Of a stretch of DNA of 64,000 nucleotides, positions 15,642-25,441 are shown one piece after another (position 1 is the stretch's first letter; each line of letters opens with the position of its first letter). The position numbers and the translations under genes were made by a program. The stretch covers positions 1-64,000 of the forward strand of contig NZ_BOOG01000014.1 in NCBI RefSeq assembly GCF_016863115.1, in the 5' to 3' direction. This stretch comes from Sphaerimonospora thailandensis (GTDB lineage: Bacteria > Actinomycetota > Actinomycetes > Streptosporangiales > Streptosporangiaceae). The notes below the pieces were generated by a model that did not search any database, was not told the origin of the DNA, and saw only the letters and a program-made list of their open reading frames with translations.

Positions 15642-16838
15642 GTGCTTGAAACCTGCGATGTCGCGATCATCGGTGGCGGCGTGATCGGATGCGCGATCGC
15701 CCACCGGCTCGGCTCAGAGGGCCGGACCGTCCTCCTCGTCGAGGCGGAGTCACGCCTGGGCCAGGGCGCCTCCAACGCCGCGATGGGCGGCATCCTCACC
15801 CAGACCGAGCCCTCCTGCCTGGGGCCGCTGACCCCTGTGATCAAGCGCAGCCGGGATCTGTATCCGGACTGGGTGGCCGAGATCGCCGAGATCTCCGGTG
15901 TGACGGTCTCCCTGCTCGAAGGGGGCGACCTGCAGGTCGCGGTCGACGACGCGGAGATGGATCGCCTGAAGAACCAGGTCCTGCCGAGGTGGCGGGAGTC
16001 GCCGTTCCCCGTCGAACAGCTCACCGGAGCCGAGGCCAGAGAGCTGGAGCCGATGCTGAGCGAGGCGGTCGTCGGCGGGTTCCTGCTGCCGGACGAGCTC
16101 GCGCTCGACCCACGTGAGCTGATGGGGGCCCTGTGCGGGGCGCTCGACGGCATGGCCGCGGCGATCCGCGTCCGGACCGGCGTACGGGCCGAGCACCTGG
16201 CGGAGCTGCCCGGCTCCGCCGAGGTGCGCCTCGACGACGGCACCCGGGTCTCGGCCGGGACGGTGATCGTCGCGGCCGGCTGCCTCAGCGGTGGATTCCT
16301 GCCCGACCACCACCGGCATCTCTATCCCATCAAGGGCGAGGCCTTCGACACCCGTCCCCCCGGAGGAACCGGATATCCGCTGCGCCACCACATCTTCGCG
16401 GAGATCAGGGACGGCGACTTCGAGGGCTACCCGTACCTGGTGCCCAGGCGCGACGGCAGGGTCGCGATGGGCGTCACCTACGAGCCTCACGTGGGAGACG
16501 TGACGGTCACCGCCCGCGCCCGCGAGGAGATCCTGCGCGGGGTGGGCATCGTGATGCCGCAGGCCGCGACCTGGCCGATCGAGCGGAGCTGGGCCGGGCT
16601 GCGGCCGGGCAGCACCGACCACATCCCGATCATCGGTTACACCGGCGAGCGGGTGCTCGCCGCCACCGGCCACAGCGGGCTGGGCATCACGCTCGCTCCC
16701 GTCACCGCCGAGCTGGTCTCGGCCGTCCTCAACGGGAACGCCGACGACGGGACGCGGCAGCTGCTGGGTGTGTGCCGCCCCGACCGGGAGTTCGTCCCCG
16801 TCATGCCGGGGGAGACGCCATCTCCCACAGCTCCTTGA
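15642..16838 (+). CDS. FAD-dependent oxidoreductase, DAO family (ThiO/glycine oxidase-like)
   Basis: About 398 residues starting at the GTG 15642, which has GGGAG six bases upstream; the frame stays open to 15507 but that extension would be family-atypical. The FAD-binding Rossmann motif DVAIIGGGVIGCAIAHRL is at the N-terminus and the DAO C-terminal motif RPGSTDHIPIIG with GHSGLGITLAPVTAELV at the end. Length and motifs fit glycine oxidase/ThiO-type amine oxidases, which oxidise glycine or other amino acids to imines with H2O2 release. No thiS or thiG is nearby, so a thiamine role is not supported by context. It overlaps the 3' end of the convergent operon by 38 bp. Confidence 0.85.
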   Translation: MLETCDVAIIGGGVIGCAIAHRLGSEGRTVLLVEAESRLGQGASNAAMGGILTQTEPSCLGPLTPVIKRSRDLYPDWVAEIAEISGVTVSLLEGGDLQVAVDDAEMDRLKNQVLPRWRESPFPVEQLTGAEARELEPMLSEAVVGGFLLPDELALDPRELMGALCGALDGMAAAIRVRTGVRAEHLAELPGSAEVRLDDGTRVSAGTVIVAAGCLSGGFLPDHHRHLYPIKGEAFDTRPPGGTGYPLRHHIFAEIRDGDFEGYPYLVPRRDGRVAMGVTYEPHVGDVTVTARAREEILRGVGIVMPQAATWPIERSWAGLRPGSTDHIPIIGYTGERVLAATGHSGLGITLAPVTAELVSAVLNGNADDGTRQLLGVCRPDREFVPVMPGETPSPTAP

Positions 16839-17757
16839 ATCGTTCGATCCGCTGCCGCACCCTGGGCTGCTCCAGCACCAGCAACGTGTGCACGAACGTG
16901 TGGGTGGTGATCTCGCCCACCTGTGGAGCGGAGGGGGTCACCTCGTAGCTGAGCACCTCGTCGAAGACGATGAAGTCGAACAGCCCCAGCGGGCTCGCGA
17001 GCTGCTCGGGCGTGAGGATGCGCACCTGGACGCCGATCTCCGAGTGCATCTTGCAGACTCGCCGGAATATCTCCGCGCCCAGGCGTTCCGAGCTGTCGAC
17101 GAAGAAGATCCGGCGGATCCGGACGCCTTCCCGGATCCGGTCGCGCTGCGCGTCCAGATATCGCTGACCCGCGTCGGTGGTCCAGAACCCCCCGTCGAAC
17201 TCGCTCGGCCCCTGGTCCACGACGTTGAGGCTGAGCGCGTCCAGGCTGTGCTGCGTGTTGTGGGTCAGGCCGAGCAGCCAGTCCCGATCCTCTCCCTCGT
17301 AGATGACGTTGCCCTCCCCGAGCTCCCGCAGGAGCGTGGAGATCCTCGCGATCTCCCACTGGGCGAAGGCCTGGACCAGGGTGGGCATCTCCTTGTCGAC
17401 CCGCGTCGCGTTGCGGACGAGCTGGGTGACCACGTCGGCCTGTACCGCCGACTCCTCCACCAGCCCGAACAGCTCGGTCGCCTCGTTGATCCGCGACAGG
17501 CCCGACCCGACCTCCTCGCGCAGCGTCTCCAACTGCCTGTCGACCTCGATGAGGTACTGCACCACGAAGACCACGGCACTGATGAAGACCGTGAGGATGA
17601 TGCCCCACGCTTTACGCGGCTCGCCGGTGCCGATGAAGGGGCCGTCGTCGTCGGTCAGGAGGTACGTGGGAACGCCGACTGCCGCCGTGATGAGGAACTT
17701 GCGAAGGGTGCGCGGAATCAACTCGCGGTTCACTCGGGATCCCTCCGGAGTCGTCAT
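16801..17757 (-). CDS. Membrane protein of the SCO2521-type cluster, unknown
   Basis: A 318-residue protein. Two hydrophobic segments (about residues 20-34 and 50-70) are followed by a coiled-coil-like region (VDRQLETLREEVGSGLSRINEA), then a soluble domain with a WLLGLTHNTQHSL motif and a C-terminal alpha/beta segment (RIRRIFFVDSSERLGAEIFRR, then FDFIVFDEVLSYEVTP). The latter pattern recalls nucleotide- or PLD-like folds without catalytic HKD; no firm family was recognised. The ATG directly follows the SCO2521-type stop (TAGATG), so it is the last gene of the operon and the likely membrane tether of the system. Confidence 0.75.
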   Translation of the reverse strand: MTTPEGSRVNRELIPRTLRKFLITAAVGVPTYLLTDDDGPFIGTGEPRKAWGIILTVFISAVVFVVQYLIEVDRQLETLREEVGSGLSRINEATELFGLVEESAVQADVVTQLVRNATRVDKEMPTLVQAFAQWEIARISTLLRELGEGNVIYEGEDRDWLLGLTHNTQHSLDALSLNVVDQGPSEFDGGFWTTDAGQRYLDAQRDRIREGVRIRRIFFVDSSERLGAEIFRRVCKMHSEIGVQVRILTPEQLASPLGLFDFIVFDEVLSYEVTPSAPQVGEITTHTFVHTLLVLEQPRVRQRIERFKELWEMASPPA

Positions 17758-18783
17758 CTACCACCCGCCTTTTCTGATGAGGAGGGTCAGCATGTTGACC
17801 GAGATCTGGTCGCGGATGCGGTCCACCAGCGACTGCCACTGCCGGGTGAACCCGGGATATCGCTCCAGGCTCTCCCACAGCGGGGTGAGCGTCTCGTCGA
17901 CCCGTGCGGCGGGCATCCACAGGTGCAGGAGGTGGTCGACGGCCGGGGTCAGCTTGGCGACCGCCTCCGGCCCCGGCGCGCCGCCGGTCAGTGCCCGTTC
18001 GACGATCACCAGCAGCGTCGTCAGCAGCCAGTCGTGCAGTGCCAGGTCCTCGCACAGCTCGGCGACGGCGGGCGTGAACTCCCCGTCATGGACCAGGCGC
18101 AGTGTGCGCAACTGATCGTTGTGGAGGGTGAAGCGGATGGCCGGGGCGCCGCTTTCGGACGCGCTCTCCGCCACCCAGCGCAGGCGGGTCCGCGGGATCT
18201 TGAAAGGAGCTCTGCGATCGAGCAGCGGCGACGACTGGACCAGGTCCACGAACCTGCCGCTGATCGCGCCGAGATCGAGGGGAGCCGAGCCCGACCAGCC
18301 CGGGCCCCGGTCCCCGCGAGCAGGGTCCGGGCGAGCAGGGTCCGGGCGGGTCCGGCCAGCGGACGCGCCGCTCAGACGGTCGCCGGGGAGGTCATCGGTG
18401 AACCCGTCGGAGAGGTCCCGGGGCTTCGCCTTCCCGAGCACCTCCATCACCCCCGGACGGGCCAGATAATGCGACCACGGCAGGCGGCGGTCGACGGCGG
18501 CGCGCACGATCCGGACATAGGACGAGCCCTGGACCACCCGGCCACCGGTGATCGAGCACCGGGTCAGCACCGTCCCTACGCCCCTGACCCGCGACTGGGA
18601 TGCGGAGGGAAGGCGGCAGTCCACTCCGGTCAGCCGGTCCGGTGACACCGCGTGGACGATCGGACGACGGGAGACCCGTACCGTCTGTCCCGCGAGCAAC
18701 CCGAGAAGCCGCCGGCAGGTGGATGCGGCGACCTCCCCCGAGTTCTGCAGCAGCCCTGTGTGGACTTCCCCCATGACCAGCAT
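17758..18783 (-). CDS. SCO2521 family protein
   Basis: About 341 residues, no signal peptide or transmembrane helix. It matches by order and size the SCO2521-type proteins that accompany SCO2522-SCO2524 in streptomycetes. The first 110 residues are rich in short beta-type segments (GEVHTGLLQNSGE, TVRVSRRPIVHAVSP), then there is a low-complexity stretch with two RPDPA units, then a helical C-terminus. No catalytic motif is visible. ATG at 18783 has GGGAAG eight bases upstream, 13 bp after the preceding stop. The function of the family is not known. Confidence 0.7.
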   Translation of the reverse strand: MLVMGEVHTGLLQNSGEVAASTCRRLLGLLAGQTVRVSRRPIVHAVSPDRLTGVDCRLPSASQSRVRGVGTVLTRCSITGGRVVQGSSYVRIVRAAVDRRLPWSHYLARPGVMEVLGKAKPRDLSDGFTDDLPGDRLSGASAGRTRPDPARPDPARGDRGPGWSGSAPLDLGAISGRFVDLVQSSPLLDRRAPFKIPRTRLRWVAESASESGAPAIRFTLHNDQLRTLRLVHDGEFTPAVAELCEDLALHDWLLTTLLVIVERALTGGAPGPEAVAKLTPAVDHLLHLWMPAARVDETLTPLWESLERYPGFTRQWQSLVDRIRDQISVNMLTLLIRKGGW

Positions 18784-18796
18784 CGAATGCGCTTCC

Positions 18797-19738
18797 CTAA
18801 ATGAATACGTAGGAGATGCGGTCGACGAGCTCTTCCTCCAGCCGGATGCCCTCGCCCTCACTACGGCCGGCCACCTGCTCCAGGACCTCGGCGTCCACCG
18901 CGACCTGGCTGAGGATCGTGCGCACGGCCAGTTCGACGGGCAGGAACCGGGGGGACAGGACGGACATGGTGGTGTAGGCGGCGAACGGTGGAGCATGATC
19001 GCCCAACTGGACGATGGGGGACAGCGCGTCCCAGTCGGTGGGCCAGGCCTGCGGCCGGAGCTCCGGTCGTAACGGCAGCCGGCCCCCGTCGCGCAGTAGC
19101 CCGAGCCGCAGGAGCTGCCAGACGGCCGCCAGGAACGGACACGACCAGGTGCGGTGCGGTCCGGTCTCATCCCACAACTCCACGTCCACGAAGATCGAGT
19201 GCCCGCGTTTGGCGTTCTGGGCCGGCGGCGCCCACCGCTGCGCCCTGCCCATGGCCTGTACGGCTCCCGCCTGCGAAGAGCGCATGCCGTTGCAGAGCCA
19301 GCCCGTCTCCTTGACGGGCGGACGCGAACCGTTGGCGCCCGGTGGCGGGTCGTCGACGAGCCGATCCTCGACCAGTCCGGCCGGCTCGGCGCAGGCCGAC
19401 TCCCGCGCGAGGTAGTCGATGGTCAGGTCGCTTTCCGCCGCCGCCTCGAGAACCATCGGCACCAGTTCCGCGGGAGAGCTGAACCGGCTGAAGTAGTCAT
19501 CGATGAGGAAGCACGTGCTGACTCTCGCCCGCCGCCCGGGCACCTGCTCCTCCCAGGTCGACCGGACGGCGCCGGCCCAGGGGGCGACCCGGCGGAACAT
19601 CCGGCGCAGCCGGTCGGGGCCGGCCTCGAAATCCTCCATGTAGAGGTGCCCGAGCTCGATGGACACATGGGACAGGGGCGCGGCGGCGATCCGCCGCTCC
19701 GCGGTGACCTCGCCGAACATCGCGTTCATCGGCGTCAC
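18797..19738 (-). CDS. SCO2522 family protein
   Basis: About 313 residues, soluble, starting at a GTG overlapping the previous stop by four bases (GTGA) with GGAGG just upstream; the ATG at 19729 is an alternative. N-terminal segments SHVSIELGHLYMEDF and RARVSTCFLIDDYFSRFSSP look like a folded alpha/beta core. Residues near 135-160 hold a charged, Pro-rich loop, and the C-terminus is helical with LPVELAVRTILSQVAV. It belongs to the uncharacterised SCO2522 family by neighbourhood and sequence feel. The longer open frame running upstream to 21736 is a shadow of the two genes before it. Confidence 0.7.
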   Translation of the reverse strand: MTPMNAMFGEVTAERRIAAAPLSHVSIELGHLYMEDFEAGPDRLRRMFRRVAPWAGAVRSTWEEQVPGRRARVSTCFLIDDYFSRFSSPAELVPMVLEAAAESDLTIDYLARESACAEPAGLVEDRLVDDPPPGANGSRPPVKETGWLCNGMRSSQAGAVQAMGRAQRWAPPAQNAKRGHSIFVDVELWDETGPHRTWSCPFLAAVWQLLRLGLLRDGGRLPLRPELRPQAWPTDWDALSPIVQLGDHAPPFAAYTTMSVLSPRFLPVELAVRTILSQVAVDAEVLEQVAGRSEGEGIRLEEELVDRISYVFI

Positions 19739-20649
19739 AGTCCCTCCCATGCGCTGTCGTCCATGATCTTTTTGGCCAGGTCCTCGAAAGCGGCGGCCGT
19801 CTCCGCATTCGCGATCTTGGTGGCCAGCACGTCCTCGTCGGAGATGAGCTGCTCGCGCCACTGCAGGATCGGGTCGAGCGGAACCTTGCCGAGCATCGCC
19901 GTACGGCCGACGCCGTGGCGGCCGGCGAGTTCGCGCAGCTCGCCGTCGTAGGCGCTCAGCCAGGCCCGCTGTTCGTCGCGCAGGCCCACGAGCTCGGCCG
20001 CCTCGGATTCGAGCACCGCCGTGCGGACGAAGCGGATCCGCTCGCGCAGGACCTCCGGGTCGTGCCCGAACCGGGCGCCGACGTCGAGCAGCCCGTCGGC
20101 TCCGTTGACGAGGCCGTCGGCCGCGATGATGTGCTGACGCGTCCAGCGGTGGTAGACCAGCCAGCGGAACGGCACCGCGGGCAGCCGTACCGTGGCCTGC
20201 AGGATCATCTCGGCGGTGAACGAGCGCCCCGCGCTCACGTCCACCACGCACAGATCGAACTCCTCCTCCAACCGGCTGAAGAGCTGAACGCACCTGTTCG
20301 CCATCTCGTCGTCCACCGTGGACAGCTCGCCCCCGCCCTCGCTGCCCGGGAGCAGCACGAGCCGTCCCGCGCCGGGGGGCTTGACCCGCAGCCCCTCCCT
20401 GTCGGACTCCGCCCACACGTCGATGCGCTGCGGTTCGGTGAGCTCGCCCCGCAGGTACTCGTGCAGTCCGCCGGCGCGGGTGCCGCGTGCCACCGAACTC
20501 ACGCTGAAGATCGCACCGGCTGTCGGAGAGCCGAAGTCGAAGTCCAGGTAACAGGCGTCGTTGCCCTGGAGGGCGTGCCGATAGGCGATGTTCGTGCTCG
20601 TGACCGAGCGCCCTGTCCCGCCCTTGTCGGAGATCGCGAAAACCAGCAT
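19735..20649 (-). CDS. SCO2523 family variant P-loop protein (ParA/MinD-like)
   Basis: A 304-residue P-loop ATPase-like protein. The N-terminal DKGGTGRS (residues 8-15) is a deviant Walker A of the ParA/MinD type: the signature Lys9 is kept but the canonical P-loop lysine is Arg14. Walker A' is seen as CYLDFDFGSPTAG and Walker B as FDLCVVDVSAG. Such proteins form nucleotide-dependent dimers and often position partners or switch between membrane and cytoplasm. The ATG directly follows the upstream stop (TAGATG) and its own stop overlaps the next gene. The Lys-to-Arg change may lower or abolish hydrolysis, making a nucleotide-locked scaffold; that is inference. Confidence 0.85.
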   Translation of the reverse strand: MLVFAISDKGGTGRSVTSTNIAYRHALQGNDACYLDFDFGSPTAGAIFSVSSVARGTRAGGLHEYLRGELTEPQRIDVWAESDREGLRVKPPGAGRLVLLPGSEGGGELSTVDDEMANRCVQLFSRLEEEFDLCVVDVSAGRSFTAEMILQATVRLPAVPFRWLVYHRWTRQHIIAADGLVNGADGLLDVGARFGHDPEVLRERIRFVRTAVLESEAAELVGLRDEQRAWLSAYDGELRELAGRHGVGRTAMLGKVPLDPILQWREQLISDEDVLATKIANAETAAAFEDLAKKIMDDSAWEGL

Positions 20650-22485
20650 CTAGATGGCCTCCGCCGCGTTGTCGCGGGCGGCGGCCAGCCGCTCGAGGTC
20701 GAGCAGGGCATCGTAGACCAGAGCTTGGGCCGTCGCGGGCCGCTCGTCGATGATCGCCCTGGCCCGCTGGAGCGCGGCCTGAATGCCGCGCAGCTTGGGC
20801 TGGATCGTCTGCCCGGCCGTCAACGGCCGTAGGACCAGCTCCTGATCCAGCAGGTGCTCGGCCTCGCCGAGCATCTCGTACGCCATCTCGACGAGCCGTG
20901 GGTTGCGCAGCGGCGGATCGCTCCTGGCCTGGGTCGCCGCCACGAGGAACTCGACAACCCGTTCGCTGAAATACCACGACGGGTCCTCCGAATGCGCGTC
21001 GAGTCCGGCGAACACGTTGCCCGGCTGGTCCCACAGCCCGCGTGCCCGGCCGCTCGTGCACCGGCGAGCCGAAACGTGCCGCCAGATCTGGTCGGCGAGC
21101 CCGAGCAGCTTCTCTTTGGTATGGGTGTTCTGCACGATCGACGCGGCCCAGATCGTCCGCTTGAGCAGCGTGATCGCGAAGTCGGAGACGATCCAGATCA
21201 GGTTCGGGCCGAGATCCTCCGCGCCGCGCATGTTGATCGCGACTCCGGGGGAGTGCATGGAGACCGAAGGGTCCCCGGGCACCGCCCTGCGGATGATCCT
21301 GGCCCGCACGGCCAGCTCTTCCAGCACGTCCGCGACCCGGCCGAGGTCGACGTCGGCCGCCCGGCTGTTGACGAGGCTCTGCACCACCATCGCGGTGACG
21401 CCGAGGCTGTAGTATTCCGACTCCTTCTCGTCTGTCGTCTTCCACGGGATGTCCTGCAGCGGCCATTGGCCCCGGCCGTACATGGCGATCGTCCGCCAGT
21501 AGATCTGGGTGAGGTCCCAGCGGCGCTGGATGGCCTGTGCGAGGGTCTGCTGGGGGTCGTTGAGCAGGCCGAGCACGCGGGTGCGCTCGGAGAACAGGTC
21601 GGCGATGCCGACGAGGGCGTTCACGGTGAAGTAGAGGAAGGGCGTCTCCTTCGCCACGCCCTTGGGCTGCGGGCCGATGTCGTGCGGAGTGGCGACCTCG
21701 GGGGAGTCCTTCACGATGCCCCAGGTCCATCCGCATTCGAACAGCAGGTTCTCGTTGTCGAGGTCGACCTGGCTGCCGGATCCGATCGTGAGGTCTCGCA
21801 GTCCCGCCCGTACCGGACGCAGCTCACGCCGCAGATCGTCGAGGACCCGGCGGTCCGGGGCCCCCGCCTGGTTGACGGTCCGCACCAGCGCGCGGCCGGA
21901 GGGCGAGCCGGGATCGAATGCGTTGACCGTGAAGCTGCGCAGCATGCCCACCATGGCGGCCGTCAGCCGTTTGCTCGCGAGATCCTCCAGCTCCCGGATC
22001 TCGGCGCGCAGCGACTGCCTTCGCACGCTCTGCCGGAAGACCTTGAGGAAGCCGAGCGTGGACAGCGCGAGCGTGACCGACATGGAGAAGGAGTCGACCA
22101 CGTCGAGCTGGAGCTGTTCGGGAGCGGGCTTGCCGTCGGGGGCGGCGGCGCGGAAATAGCTTCCGCCCGAGAAGATCGGCCGCCCGTCGTCCGCCGTGTA
22201 CTTCCGCAGGTACTGACCGATCACCTGCAGGAGCAGCTTCGGGATCTCGACGGAGTCGCCCAGCCGGGCCAGCGCGGCCAGGACGTCGTCGGCGGTCTCG
22301 TCCGGCGTGTCGAGCCGGAGGCCCGGCAGCTCCGCCGCCGGGTAAAGGAAGCACAGGAGTTGCTCGGCGTCCGAGATGGAGTTCGACCCGTCTCGCCCAC
22401 CCCACGTCCACACTCCGTCGCGGTACGAAGCTCGGGCGGCCGCCTCCCAGACATCCAGGAGCTGCTGGCGCGGCTGAAACTTCAT
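20650..22485 (-). CDS. SCO2524 family protein
   Basis: A 611-residue, mostly helical soluble protein, first gene of the operon. It has no signal peptide and no recognised catalytic motif. Aromatic-rich motifs such as VWTWGGRDGSNSISDAEQLL near the N-terminus and GPNLIWIVSDFAITLLKRTIW near residue 410 suggest a large alpha-solenoid-like or scaffold fold. It corresponds in size and position to SCO2524 of Streptomyces. ATG at 22485 with AAAGG about nine bases upstream. It is divergent from the dehydrogenase gene at 22702 across 216 bp containing a nested palindrome. Function unknown. Confidence 0.75.
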   Translation of the reverse strand: MKFQPRQQLLDVWEAAARASYRDGVWTWGGRDGSNSISDAEQLLCFLYPAAELPGLRLDTPDETADDVLAALARLGDSVEIPKLLLQVIGQYLRKYTADDGRPIFSGGSYFRAAAPDGKPAPEQLQLDVVDSFSMSVTLALSTLGFLKVFRQSVRRQSLRAEIRELEDLASKRLTAAMVGMLRSFTVNAFDPGSPSGRALVRTVNQAGAPDRRVLDDLRRELRPVRAGLRDLTIGSGSQVDLDNENLLFECGWTWGIVKDSPEVATPHDIGPQPKGVAKETPFLYFTVNALVGIADLFSERTRVLGLLNDPQQTLAQAIQRRWDLTQIYWRTIAMYGRGQWPLQDIPWKTTDEKESEYYSLGVTAMVVQSLVNSRAADVDLGRVADVLEELAVRARIIRRAVPGDPSVSMHSPGVAINMRGAEDLGPNLIWIVSDFAITLLKRTIWAASIVQNTHTKEKLLGLADQIWRHVSARRCTSGRARGLWDQPGNVFAGLDAHSEDPSWYFSERVVEFLVAATQARSDPPLRNPRLVEMAYEMLGEAEHLLDQELVLRPLTAGQTIQPKLRGIQAALQRARAIIDERPATAQALVYDALLDLERLAAARDNAAEAI

Positions 22486-22632
22486 CTACGAGAGCCTTTC
22501 TGTACGGTCGGACCCTTTCCGCACGGTTCAATGACCCGATGGCTGGCGGGAAGATGTACAAGGGGCTACACGACCCTTATATCATTGAGACGCTGCTCCG
22601 TCGCCTGGATGACCGGTGAGATTTCGCGTTGT

Positions 22633-22667
22633 CTGCTCATCGTGCTAGCACAGATGCAGATGAGCAG
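22633..22667. promoter_or_regulatory. Nested palindrome in a divergent promoter region
   Basis: CTGCTCAT (22633-22640) and ATGAGCAG (22660-22667) are perfect 8-bp inverted arms. Inside them GTGCTAGCAC (22642-22651) is itself a perfect 10-bp palindrome. The structure lies 35 bp before the dehydrogenase start and 150 bp from the SCO2524-type start, well placed as an operator for either. Confidence 0.5.
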
Positions 22668-22701
22668 AATCAACATAAATGCCTAATTCCTGAGAGATCA
22701 A

Positions 22702-23760
22702 ATGTCCCAAACAGCGGCGTTCAGGGATATATCGGACCATCTCGTGGCGGTGCGGGACTTCGTCGGAGAGACGGCGGCGATGGACGGGACGATCCTGGTC
22801 ACGGGGGCGGGCATCGACATGTCGCTGCTCGAGTCGCTGCGTGAGCATGGGCTGCGGATCCCGGACAGGCCGATCCAGCCGCTGACGGAGGAGGAGCTGA
22901 TACGCGGGCTGCGCGGTGCGGTGGCCTACGTGCACGGGGGCGAGGAGCGGGCGACGGCCGGGGTGTTGGCGAGCGCGCGGGAGACGCTCAAGGTCGTCGC
23001 TTTCCTGGGTGTGGGCTATGAGAACTTCGTCGACGTGGCTGCGGCGGACGGGCTCGGGATCGTCGTCACCAGCACGCCGGGTGCGGCGACGGACTCGGTG
23101 ACCGAGCTCACCATCGGTCAGATCATCAATGCCAACCGGCATATCGGACAGTTTCTCGGCGACCGATATCCCGGCTGGCGGAGCCCGGAAGAACTGCCGC
23201 ACGAGCTGAGGTCACGCAGGGTCGGCATCGTCGGACTGGGCGCGAACGGCACCCGGATCGCGGAGGTCCTGCGGGCGTTCCACACGGACGTCGCCTACTT
23301 CAGCCGCACGCGGAAACCCGACGTCGAGGAGCGGCTGGGCCTGTCTTACCTGCCCCTGCCCGAACTGGCGGGCCGCAGCGACATCCTCGTCGTCATGGTC
23401 CCCTGCACCGCGGAGACCAGGTTCATGATCGATGTCGACGTCCTGAAGCGGTTGCGCCCGGGGGCGGTCTTGATCAACACCGCACGCCCGGCCGTCGTCG
23501 ACCCCCACGCGCTGCATGAGGCCATGAGCGCGGAGCGTGTGGGCATGGCCGTTTTCGATGGATTCTATGACCGAAATTCAGAGATCGCGGCTAAATTGCT
23601 GAGTGACTTCGGTGACCGGCTCCTCGTCACCGGTCATATCGCCTCCCACACCCGGGAGGCCATGGACCGCATGGTGAGCCAGGCCGTCGGTTCCATCAAG
23701 AACGTGCTGTCCACGGGGGCCGACGAGTACGCCGTCGGAAAACACGGCGGAATTTCCTGA
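22702..23760 (+). CDS. D-2-hydroxyacid dehydrogenase family protein, NAD-binding
   Basis: A 352-residue protein of the D-isomer specific 2-hydroxyacid dehydrogenase family. The catalytic-domain segment AFLGVGYENFVDV is followed by the dinucleotide motif GIVGLGANGTRIAEVL, the NTARPAVVD stretch (catalytic Arg; usually ARGxxVD) and HIASHT with the catalytic His. The DVFEPEP-type segment with the usual Glu is replaced by VFDGFYDRN, so substrate use may differ. ATG at 22702 with GAGAG upstream. It probably forms an operon with the ThDP enzyme 73 bp downstream, pointing to conversion of a 2-oxo acid to a 2-hydroxy acid beside decarboxylation. Confidence 0.83.
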   Translation: MSQTAAFRDISDHLVAVRDFVGETAAMDGTILVTGAGIDMSLLESLREHGLRIPDRPIQPLTEEELIRGLRGAVAYVHGGEERATAGVLASARETLKVVAFLGVGYENFVDVAAADGLGIVVTSTPGAATDSVTELTIGQIINANRHIGQFLGDRYPGWRSPEELPHELRSRRVGIVGLGANGTRIAEVLRAFHTDVAYFSRTRKPDVEERLGLSYLPLPELAGRSDILVVMVPCTAETRFMIDVDVLKRLRPGAVLINTARPAVVDPHALHEAMSAERVGMAVFDGFYDRNSEIAAKLLSDFGDRLLVTGHIASHTREAMDRMVSQAVGSIKNVLSTGADEYAVGKHGGIS

Positions 23761-23833
23761 CTTCAAAAGGCGTATGAGATTACAGGGAAGGGCAAACGTA
23801 TTGTGAAGCCCTCTCCCGACCCCCGGATGGATC

Positions 23834-25441
23834 ATGACGCCCAACGGAGCCCGGATCCTCGTCGAGGCACTCCGGCTGCACGGCGTGGACATCGTCTTCG
23901 GCATCCCGGGCACGCACAACCTCGCGATCTACCGTGAGCTCGGCCGAGCGGATATCCGGTGCGTCACCCCGCGCCATGAGCAGGGCGCGGGGTACGCGGC
24001 CGACGGGTACGCCAGGGTGACCGGCCGGCCGGGGGTGGTGCTCACCACGACGGGTCCCGGGCTGGTCAACGCCTACACCGCCATGGCGCAGGCCTACTCC
24101 GACTCCTCGCCGGTCCTGGTCGTCTCGCCGGGCGTTCCCGGCGACCACCCCCGTCACGGCCGCGGCTACCTGCATGAGAGCAAGGACCAGTCGGCCGCGG
24201 CCGACGCGCTGTGCGAGTGGAGCCACCGGGTGAGCTCGGTCCGGGAGATCCCGGCGGCCGTGGCACGCGCGTTCGGCCGTTTCGCCGAAGGACGTCCCCG
24301 GCCGGTCCACATAGAGATCCCGGTGGACCTGCTCGAGGCCGAGGACGACGTCAGGATCGCCCCGCCGTACCGGATCATGCCCCGCGTCCCCGATCCGGGC
24401 GTGCTGGACGAGGCGGCGCGGCTGCTGGGCGACGCGCGGCGCCCCGGGCTCGTGCTCGGCGGCGGCGTCCAGCGGCCGGGTGACGACGAGTCGCCCGTGG
24501 GCCGTACGGCCATGCGTCTGGCCGAGCGGGTGGGCGCCGCCGTGGTGACGACGGTCAACGGCAAGGGATCGGTGCCGGAGAGCCACGACCTGGTGCTGGG
24601 GGCCACGCTGCACCTGGAAGCCGTACGGCACTGGCTCGCCGGGTGCGACGTCGTGCTGGCCGTCGGCACCGAGTTGGGCCCGGCCGATCTCTGGGACGAC
24701 GAGTTCGCCCTGACCGGAAGCCTGATCCGGGTGGACGTGGACCCCGGTCAGATGTATGGCGATCATGTCGCGGACGTCGCGATCGTGGCGGACGCCGCAC
24801 TCGCCCTGGAAGGTCTGAGCGAACGGCTCGACGGAGCGGAACGGCAGCCCGTTCCGCCGCCTGGCGCGGCAGCCGTACCCCGGCCTCGCCACGACCGGGA
24901 GCTGGGCGAGCTGACCCGCCGGTGGACGGGACACCTGGCGGCGCTGCGCCGGGCCCTGCCGCCGGAGGCGATCCTCGTCGGCGACAACTCGATGATCGTC
25001 TATCACGGGGCGCTGCTCGCCGTCCCCGTGGACCCGCCGGGCCGGTTCCTGTTCCCGACCGGGTTCGGCACGCTGGGATTCGCGCTGCCGGCCGCGATCG
25101 GCGCCAAGCTGGGCAGGCCGGACCGGCCGATCGTGGTCCTGGCCGGGGACGGCGCATTCCAGTTCAGTGTGCAGGAGCTGGCCACCGCCGTGGAGCTGGG
25201 GCTCAACCTGCCCATCGTGGTGTCGGTCAACGGCGGCTTCGGGGAGATCAGGGAGGAGATGGCCAGGCAGGGCACGACCCCCGTGGCCGTCGACCTGCAC
25301 GGGCCGGACCTCCCGGCGCTCGCGCGGGCCTATGGGGCGCTGGGGCGGGCCGTCAGGACGCCGGACGAGCTCGAGGACGCCGTGGCCGAGGCGCTCGGGG
25401 CTCCGCTCCCGACGGTGATCGCCCTGCCTGAGGACGGGTGA
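23834..25441 (+). CDS. ThDP-dependent enzyme (2-oxo acid decarboxylase / acetolactate synthase-like)
   Basis: A 535-residue ThDP enzyme. The PYR domain begins with GIPGTHNLAIYR and holds the catalytic Glu in TPRHEQGAGYAADGYAR. A central Rossmann-like domain follows. The PP domain carries the Mg-ThDP motif GDGAFQFSVQEL ending in SVNGGFGEI. The N-terminus and size resemble proteins annotated as 5-guanidino-2-oxopentanoate decarboxylase or large-subunit acetolactate synthase paralogues; without ilvN alongside, a biosynthetic acetolactate synthase is unlikely. Partner to the dehydrogenase upstream. The exact substrate cannot be told from sequence. Confidence 0.85.
   Translation: MTPNGARILVEALRLHGVDIVFGIPGTHNLAIYRELGRADIRCVTPRHEQGAGYAADGYARVTGRPGVVLTTTGPGLVNAYTAMAQAYSDSSPVLVVSPGVPGDHPRHGRGYLHESKDQSAAADALCEWSHRVSSVREIPAAVARAFGRFAEGRPRPVHIEIPVDLLEAEDDVRIAPPYRIMPRVPDPGVLDEAARLLGDARRPGLVLGGGVQRPGDDESPVGRTAMRLAERVGAAVVTTVNGKGSVPESHDLVLGATLHLEAVRHWLAGCDVVLAVGTELGPADLWDDEFALTGSLIRVDVDPGQMYGDHVADVAIVADAALALEGLSERLDGAERQPVPPPGAAAVPRPRHDRELGELTRRWTGHLAALRRALPPEAILVGDNSMIVYHGALLAVPVDPPGRFLFPTGFGTLGFALPAAIGAKLGRPDRPIVVLAGDGAFQFSVQELATAVELGLNLPIVVSVNGGFGEIREEMARQGTTPVAVDLHGPDLPALARAYGALGRAVRTPDELEDAVAEALGAPLPTVIALPEDG

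Follow-up and report, generated by a model that had tools for sequence, protein, structure and literature searches.

What is the function of the five-gene operon that occupies the minus strand, from 16801 to 22485, near the start of contig NZ_BOOG01000014.1 of Sphaerimonospora thailandensis? We analyzed the first 64,000 nucleotides of this contig (hereafter, the window). The operon encodes members of four protein families, SCO2524, SCO2523, SCO2522, and SCO2521 (the four-gene core), and a membrane protein, P0005. Our comparisons show that the core and its membrane partner are passed on, and also exchanged, as a single block. What is new here is the fifth protein as a regular partner, the existence of an alternative partner, and the exchange of the block at a fixed site. 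Our preferred explanation is that the operon is one functional unit, a membrane-attached, nucleotide-gated regulatory complex that affects growth or development. This is tentative, and we would put its probability at roughly 45%. The genes, and the region upstream of them, are as follows.

20650..22485, minus strand: SCO2524-family protein, 611 amino acids (NF040567, 926.7 bits, cut-off 300)
19735..20649, minus strand: SCO2523-family variant P-loop protein of the ParA/MinD type (SIMIBI class), 304 amino acids (NF040564, 503.2 bits, cut-off 200)
18797..19738, minus strand: SCO2522-family protein, 313 amino acids (NF040566, 441.5 bits, cut-off 200)
17758..18783, minus strand: SCO2521-family protein, fold unknown, 341 amino acids (NF040565, 398.7 bits, cut-off 150)
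16801..17757, minus strand: membrane partner P0005, the fifth gene, 318 amino acids
22486..22701, no strand: divergent intergenic region upstream of the operon, the site of SCO2525 in many relatives

An original prediction, made from the sequence alone, had proposed these five genes and their assignment to SCO2521-SCO2524. Both hold up. The SCO2524-like and SCO2523-like genes abut at TAGATG, the SCO2523-like gene overlaps the SCO2522-like gene at GTGA, a gap of 13 bp separates the latter from the SCO2521-like gene, and a second TAGATG marks the junction with the gene for P0005. Against NCBIfam, the four core proteins exceed the curated cut-offs by a wide margin; the same scan matched P0005 to no family. 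The prediction also called this the best candidate for an undescribed system in the window, which is correct for the function only, as NCBIfam already has models of SCO2525 and of all the core families (SCO2523 is even named "variant P-loop protein"). A literature search by locus tag found no paper on SCO2522-SCO2524, while SCO2521 and SCO2525 are mentioned in passing only. So the core families are catalogued yet functionally uncharacterized.

The four core genes stay together

To describe the distribution of the core, we used 198 genomes that were sampled evenly from the class, and we scored each family by its own NCBIfam cut-off. Each family was above its cut-off in an identical set of 21 genomes and nowhere else in the sample, and in each of the 21 the four genes share one locus. 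The genes are not scattered independently across genomes, the outcome that the original prediction had named as refuting it. Across the phylum, SCO2524 was present in 5 of 297 genomes, all of them in the host class. The five-gene operon is found in actinobacteria only.

Among several actinobacterial families, the core proteins remain about 40-58% identical, and between the window's SCO2524 and its S. mesophila counterpart the identity is 90%. The order 2524-2523-2522-2521, which is contiguous in the window, changes only rarely: in one genome (G066) all five genes are together with P0005 between SCO2523 and SCO2522, and two Catenulispora loci have inverted parts that still lie within about 11 kb. 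Given this conservation, and the same order in nearly all loci, the operon is not due to chance. Presence is patchy within Streptomyces and within the host family. In Streptomyces, the cassette has a fixed chromosomal position beside core genes of the chromosome. The plasmid and phage collections that we searched held no copies of it.

Two membrane partners and an exchanged block

The membrane partner that the original prediction described turns out to be a regular one. By a profile search, 17 of the 21 genomes with the core also encode a full-length member of the P0005 family, while other genomes gave only two partial matches, and P0005 tracks the phylogeny of the core. Loci without P0005 (in Nocardia, Catenulispora, Actinospica, and two members of family f19) encode a helical protein that ends in two membrane segments and whose gene sits adjacent to or near SCO2521. 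This alternative partner is present in 12 distinct loci, all without P0005; the two were found together in none. It matched no family in Pfam or NCBIfam. The two partners are unrelated in sequence (0.3% by hhalign), and we rejected a common origin.

Partner type goes with the phylogeny of the core genes rather than with the host family. It changes once on a tree built from all four core proteins concatenated, beside which we computed single-gene trees. Monophyly of family f19, which holds both types, is rejected (difference in log-likelihood of 165; approximately unbiased test, p = 4.8e-9). Furthermore, in two loci from one genus (L059 and L062), seven flanking proteins are 89-98% identical, while the core proteins are only 40-55% identical and the partner differs. 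This contrast at one site implies that the block was exchanged together with its partner. L055 and L064 show a similar contrast, but with two flanking proteins only. The contrasts in Streptomyces are weaker evidence because many of the flanking genes are slow-evolving core genes, and Microbispora-like genomes show no contrast: there, change in the cassette does not outpace change in the flanks. That the block is inherited or swapped whole suggests that the five proteins work together.

A few loci depart from these patterns. In Planotetraspora thailandica (L088:12630-15383), the membrane gene is missing, and SCO2521 is followed by a convergent gene for a 918-amino-acid NTPase with an FGE/EgtB-like C-terminal part. 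Another genome (G002, L069:8005-11418) has SCO2522, a P0005-like gene, SCO2525, and a second SCO2522, in that order, and the rest of the core was not found on the stretch that we read. In this second copy of SCO2522, a DUF5753 tail replaces the C-terminal half in frame. The set may be decayed, or it may be a separate sub-module. Finally, G017, from the window's own family, has a pair of P0005-like and SCO2525 genes apart from its core. That core (L070) is about 42-53% identical to the window's, versus mostly 64-90% for other members of the family, and by this comparison was likely gained from outside.

SCO2523 has arginine in place of the P-loop lysine

The P-loop of SCO2523 is MLVFAISDKGGTGRS, with the motif SDKGGTGRS. 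Lys9 is retained, as the original prediction had noticed, and Arg14 occupies the position of the MinD/ParA lysine. This is not peculiar to one genome: in our alignment, Arg14 is invariant in 47 of 47 distinct orthologues. Lys9, Gly10, Gly11, Thr12, Gly13, and Ser15 are as fixed as Arg14 is, so Arg14 is a feature of the family that is under selection. Asp36, Asp38, and Asp137 are also invariant and are candidate switch and Walker B residues. Given the conservation of these aspartates along with Lys9, Arg14, and Ser15, SCO2523 likely retains a nucleotide site that is under selection. Overall, 77 of its 304 positions are near-invariant. Among the best matches that we read, the other ParA-like proteins of the window's genome all have the lysine.

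SCO2523 resembles the ParA/MinD Walker-A cytoskeletal ATPases in its SIMIBI P-loop, its signature lysine, and its switch and Walker B aspartates, but the catalytic lysine has become arginine in every SCO2523 orthologue. The KGGVGR-motif variant AAA ATPases (NF047398) have a similar Lys-to-Arg P-loop, and SCO2523 matches them (E = 2e-8), but at 34.8 bits versus a cut-off of 90, it falls below membership. The same change is found in MinD/ParA-like domains of actinobacterial conflict systems, which were described as predicted inactive (Kaur et al. 2020, PMC7159879). Scans with Pfam, NCBIfam, and PADLOC found no vWA, MoxR, VMAP, or NACHT component of such systems in the operon, and searches of PADLOC and PHROGs gave weak ParA-like matches only.

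Two other kinds of protein are worth recording. A protein frame of 1703 amino acids in G224 has the same KGGTGR motif. Also, small genomes (L038-L044, mainly of family f7) encode a separate ParA-like family of about 300 amino acids with the motif RGGTGKS. In these, the signature lysine is replaced by arginine and the catalytic lysine is kept, which is the mirror image of SCO2523.

The other proteins of the operon

SCO2524 is mostly helical, and its FECGW.W motif, His411, His470, and Arg474 are invariant in the alignment. The AlphaFold2 model (mean confidence, or pLDDT, of 88) is all-helical with a predicted alpha/alpha-toroid-like fold. With Foldseek, the best structural matches are alpha/alpha-barrel epimerases and glycosidases, all at E = 0.03 or worse; the top match, cellobiose 2-epimerase, has a probability of 0.99 but an E-value of 0.027. 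We considered whether SCO2524 might be a homologue of the AGE/cellobiose 2-epimerases, but hhalign against the epimerase family gave 0.0%, with no profile match. We therefore reject homology and retain a resemblance of fold alone.

SCO2522 has an alpha/beta N-terminal domain with many invariant residues (H24, E28, H31, D80, D81, D108, E113, H180, D185, and E187). Its AlphaFold2 model is poor (pLDDT of 68), and Foldseek found no fold match (nothing below E = 0.18). When searched against PDB sequences, the profiles of SCO2522, SCO2524, and P0005 found no relatives, and a search of a viral fold library matched nothing. Because so many polar and aromatic residues are invariant in SCO2522 and SCO2524, both may have enzymatic roles.

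By hydropathy, the window's P0005 has two hydrophobic segments near its N-terminus, the one strong and the other weaker. Both are clear in most orthologues, and they are likely two membrane segments. A coiled-coil-like linker follows, and then a C-terminal domain (about residues 157-316) that resembles DUF6879 and the phospholipase D (PLD) superfamily. The window's protein scores 16.2 bits against Pfam's DUF6879 (PF21806), which is below the gathering threshold of 23.9 bits, but orthologues reach 24.6 (L049) and 25.2 (L064). By hhalign, the domain scores 97.5% against DUF6879 and 91.1% against PLDc_2 (PF13091) sequences, versus at most 0.2% for the unrelated profiles that we tried. It aligns lengthwise with both families, but differs from them in being joined to a coiled coil and to membrane segments at the N-terminus.

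At the positions of the catalytic HxK(x4)D motif of PLD, P0005 has L-x-D(x4)D (Leu259, Asp261, and Asp266), and the two aspartates are invariant in the P0005 family. Since the histidine and the lysine are lost, P0005 should not be a phospholipase, and its domain would be PLD-like but non-catalytic. It may be a sensor or docking domain. DUF6879 itself scores just 43% against the PLD superfamily, which is weaker than for the domain of P0005, so a link to PLD for DUF6879 as a whole is tentative. DUF6879 (e.g., L103-L116) has up to 15 copies in some genomes of the host family, and our literature search found no paper on this domain. The PLD-like domain, the family-wide reach of Arg14, and the absence of SCO2525 from this genome, which we turn to now, all go beyond the original prediction.

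Accessory and neighboring genes

Outside of the window, two enzymes often accompany the block. SCO2525, a methyltransferase of the NNMT/PNMT/TEMT type, is encoded upstream of SCO2524 in 12 of the 21 genomes, all with a P0005-type partner. In many loci, a GNAT acetyltransferase gene adjoins the block; in Actinospica, it is next to SCO2521. GNAT is absent from the window's locus, and SCO2525 has no match anywhere in the window's genome. The S. coelicolor genes sco2521-sco2526 include the four core families in the same order as in the window; the window differs in having neither SCO2525 nor GNAT and in having a fifth gene, for a membrane protein without an NCBIfam model. The study by Gehring et al. 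was reportedly a mutant screen. In two papers, Gehring et al. 2004 is cited for SCO2525 being a methyltransferase that is required for normal growth (PMC11472566) and for its morphogenetic role in S. coelicolor (PMC6344877). Also, sco2521-sco2526 are listed as one HupS-controlled operon (PMC11472566).

At the other end of the operon, the 3' end of the gene for P0005 overlaps a convergent gene for a ThiO-like oxidoreductase (15507 or 15681-16838) by 38 bp (16801-16838), and this neighbor is retained across the loci of Streptosporangiaceae. Divergent genes at 22702-25441, which resemble those for 2-hydroxyacid dehydrogenase and 5-guanidino-2-oxopentanoate decarboxylase, adjoin the operon in Streptosporangiaceae only and are probably an unrelated catabolic pair. 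A scan of 22486..22701 for sigma-70-like promoters gave no match, and we noticed no precursor gene in the operon's intergenic gaps.

Discussion

If the operon does encode a regulatory complex, then we imagine that it works as follows. A four-protein cytosolic core of SCO2524, SCO2523, SCO2522, and SCO2521 would be attached to a dedicated membrane protein. SCO2523, probably dimerizing through Lys9, would bind nucleotide and might be a slow or non-hydrolyzing switch because Arg14 replaces the catalytic lysine. This switch would gate the assembly of SCO2524, SCO2522, and SCO2521 on the membrane protein, whose PLD-like domain would sense a ligand or dock the core; in the alternative partner, this would fall to the helical domain. 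The output would adjust growth and development, with the SCO2525 methyltransferase and GNAT joining in many lineages. It is the physical complex, the slow nucleotide-bound switch, and the role in growth or development that we infer.

Several observations weigh against this explanation. SCO2525 and GNAT are the only recognizable enzymes of the system, and as the window's locus has neither, the link to development is indirect. In the readable downstream regions of L063, L087, L088, and L091, neither membrane partner is present. The conservation of SCO2524 and SCO2522 could mean that they are enzymes rather than a scaffold. Finally, exchange of a block at a fixed site is also typical of conflict and self-recognition loci.

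This last point leads to a rival explanation that we consider unlikely but serious: a cassette for biological conflict or for distinguishing self from non-self, in which the arginine-variant ParA-like protein would do the sensing or gating, with the exchangeable membrane protein as effector, perhaps by forming a pore or damaging the membrane. It would account for the replacement of one cassette at the same site by another that is divergent and encodes another membrane protein, and for a distribution that is patchy in Streptomyces as well as in the host family. The predicted inactive MinD/ParA-like domains of conflict systems (PMC7159879), the long frame in G224, and the NTPase/FGE-like gene that takes the partner's place at L088 point the same way. 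On the other hand, there was no meaningful match in PADLOC, and no copies turned up in the plasmid and phage collections. It also fits poorly with the fixed position in Streptomyces, with the Microbispora-like genus, where the cassette has not outpaced its flanks, and with the strong conservation of the core proteins, as in SCO2523.

We are somewhat more doubtful that this is a biosynthetic or modification cassette, in which SCO2524, with its toroid fold, and SCO2522 are enzymes that act with SCO2525 and GNAT on a sugar, lipid, or peptide. SCO2523 would then serve as a chaperone or as a coupling ATPase, with the membrane protein as an anchor or exporter. The structural matches of SCO2524 to epimerases and glycosidases, the invariant His, Asp, Glu, and Trp residues of SCO2522 and SCO2524, and the linked methyltransferase and GNAT would all be expected. 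But the match of SCO2524 has a poor E-value and no support from epimerase profiles, SCO2522 has no fold match, and the window's locus has neither the two linked enzymes nor any precursor gene that we noticed.

A more specific proposal, which we think improbable, is a new type of self-recognition or signalling locus in filamentous actinobacteria, with a nucleotide-locked ParA-like switch, three further dedicated proteins, and either of two interchangeable membrane proteins, which species trade whole at a fixed chromosomal site. Less probable still is classical ParA/MinD-type positioning of a cargo by ATP-driven gradients: the SIMIBI fold, the signature lysine, and the membrane partner would suit it, but the Walker A lysine is invariably arginine, Pfam and NCBIfam scans found no ParB-, MinE-, or MinC-like protein in the operon, and there is no cargo. 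The "spatial" role that was originally suggested is unsupported.

Why does this matter? No function has been reported for four families of actinomycete proteins that strictly co-occur and that, in Streptomyces, are encoded beside a known developmental gene. With the fifth gene, the choice between two membrane partners, and the exchange of the block, there is now a concrete hypothesis that can be tested in S. coelicolor or S. venezuelae. If confirmed, the PLD-like assignment would supply a fold for DUF6879. And an invariant Lys-to-Arg change in a P-loop that retains its other nucleotide-site residues would show that evolution has made use of a non-hydrolyzing SIMIBI switch.

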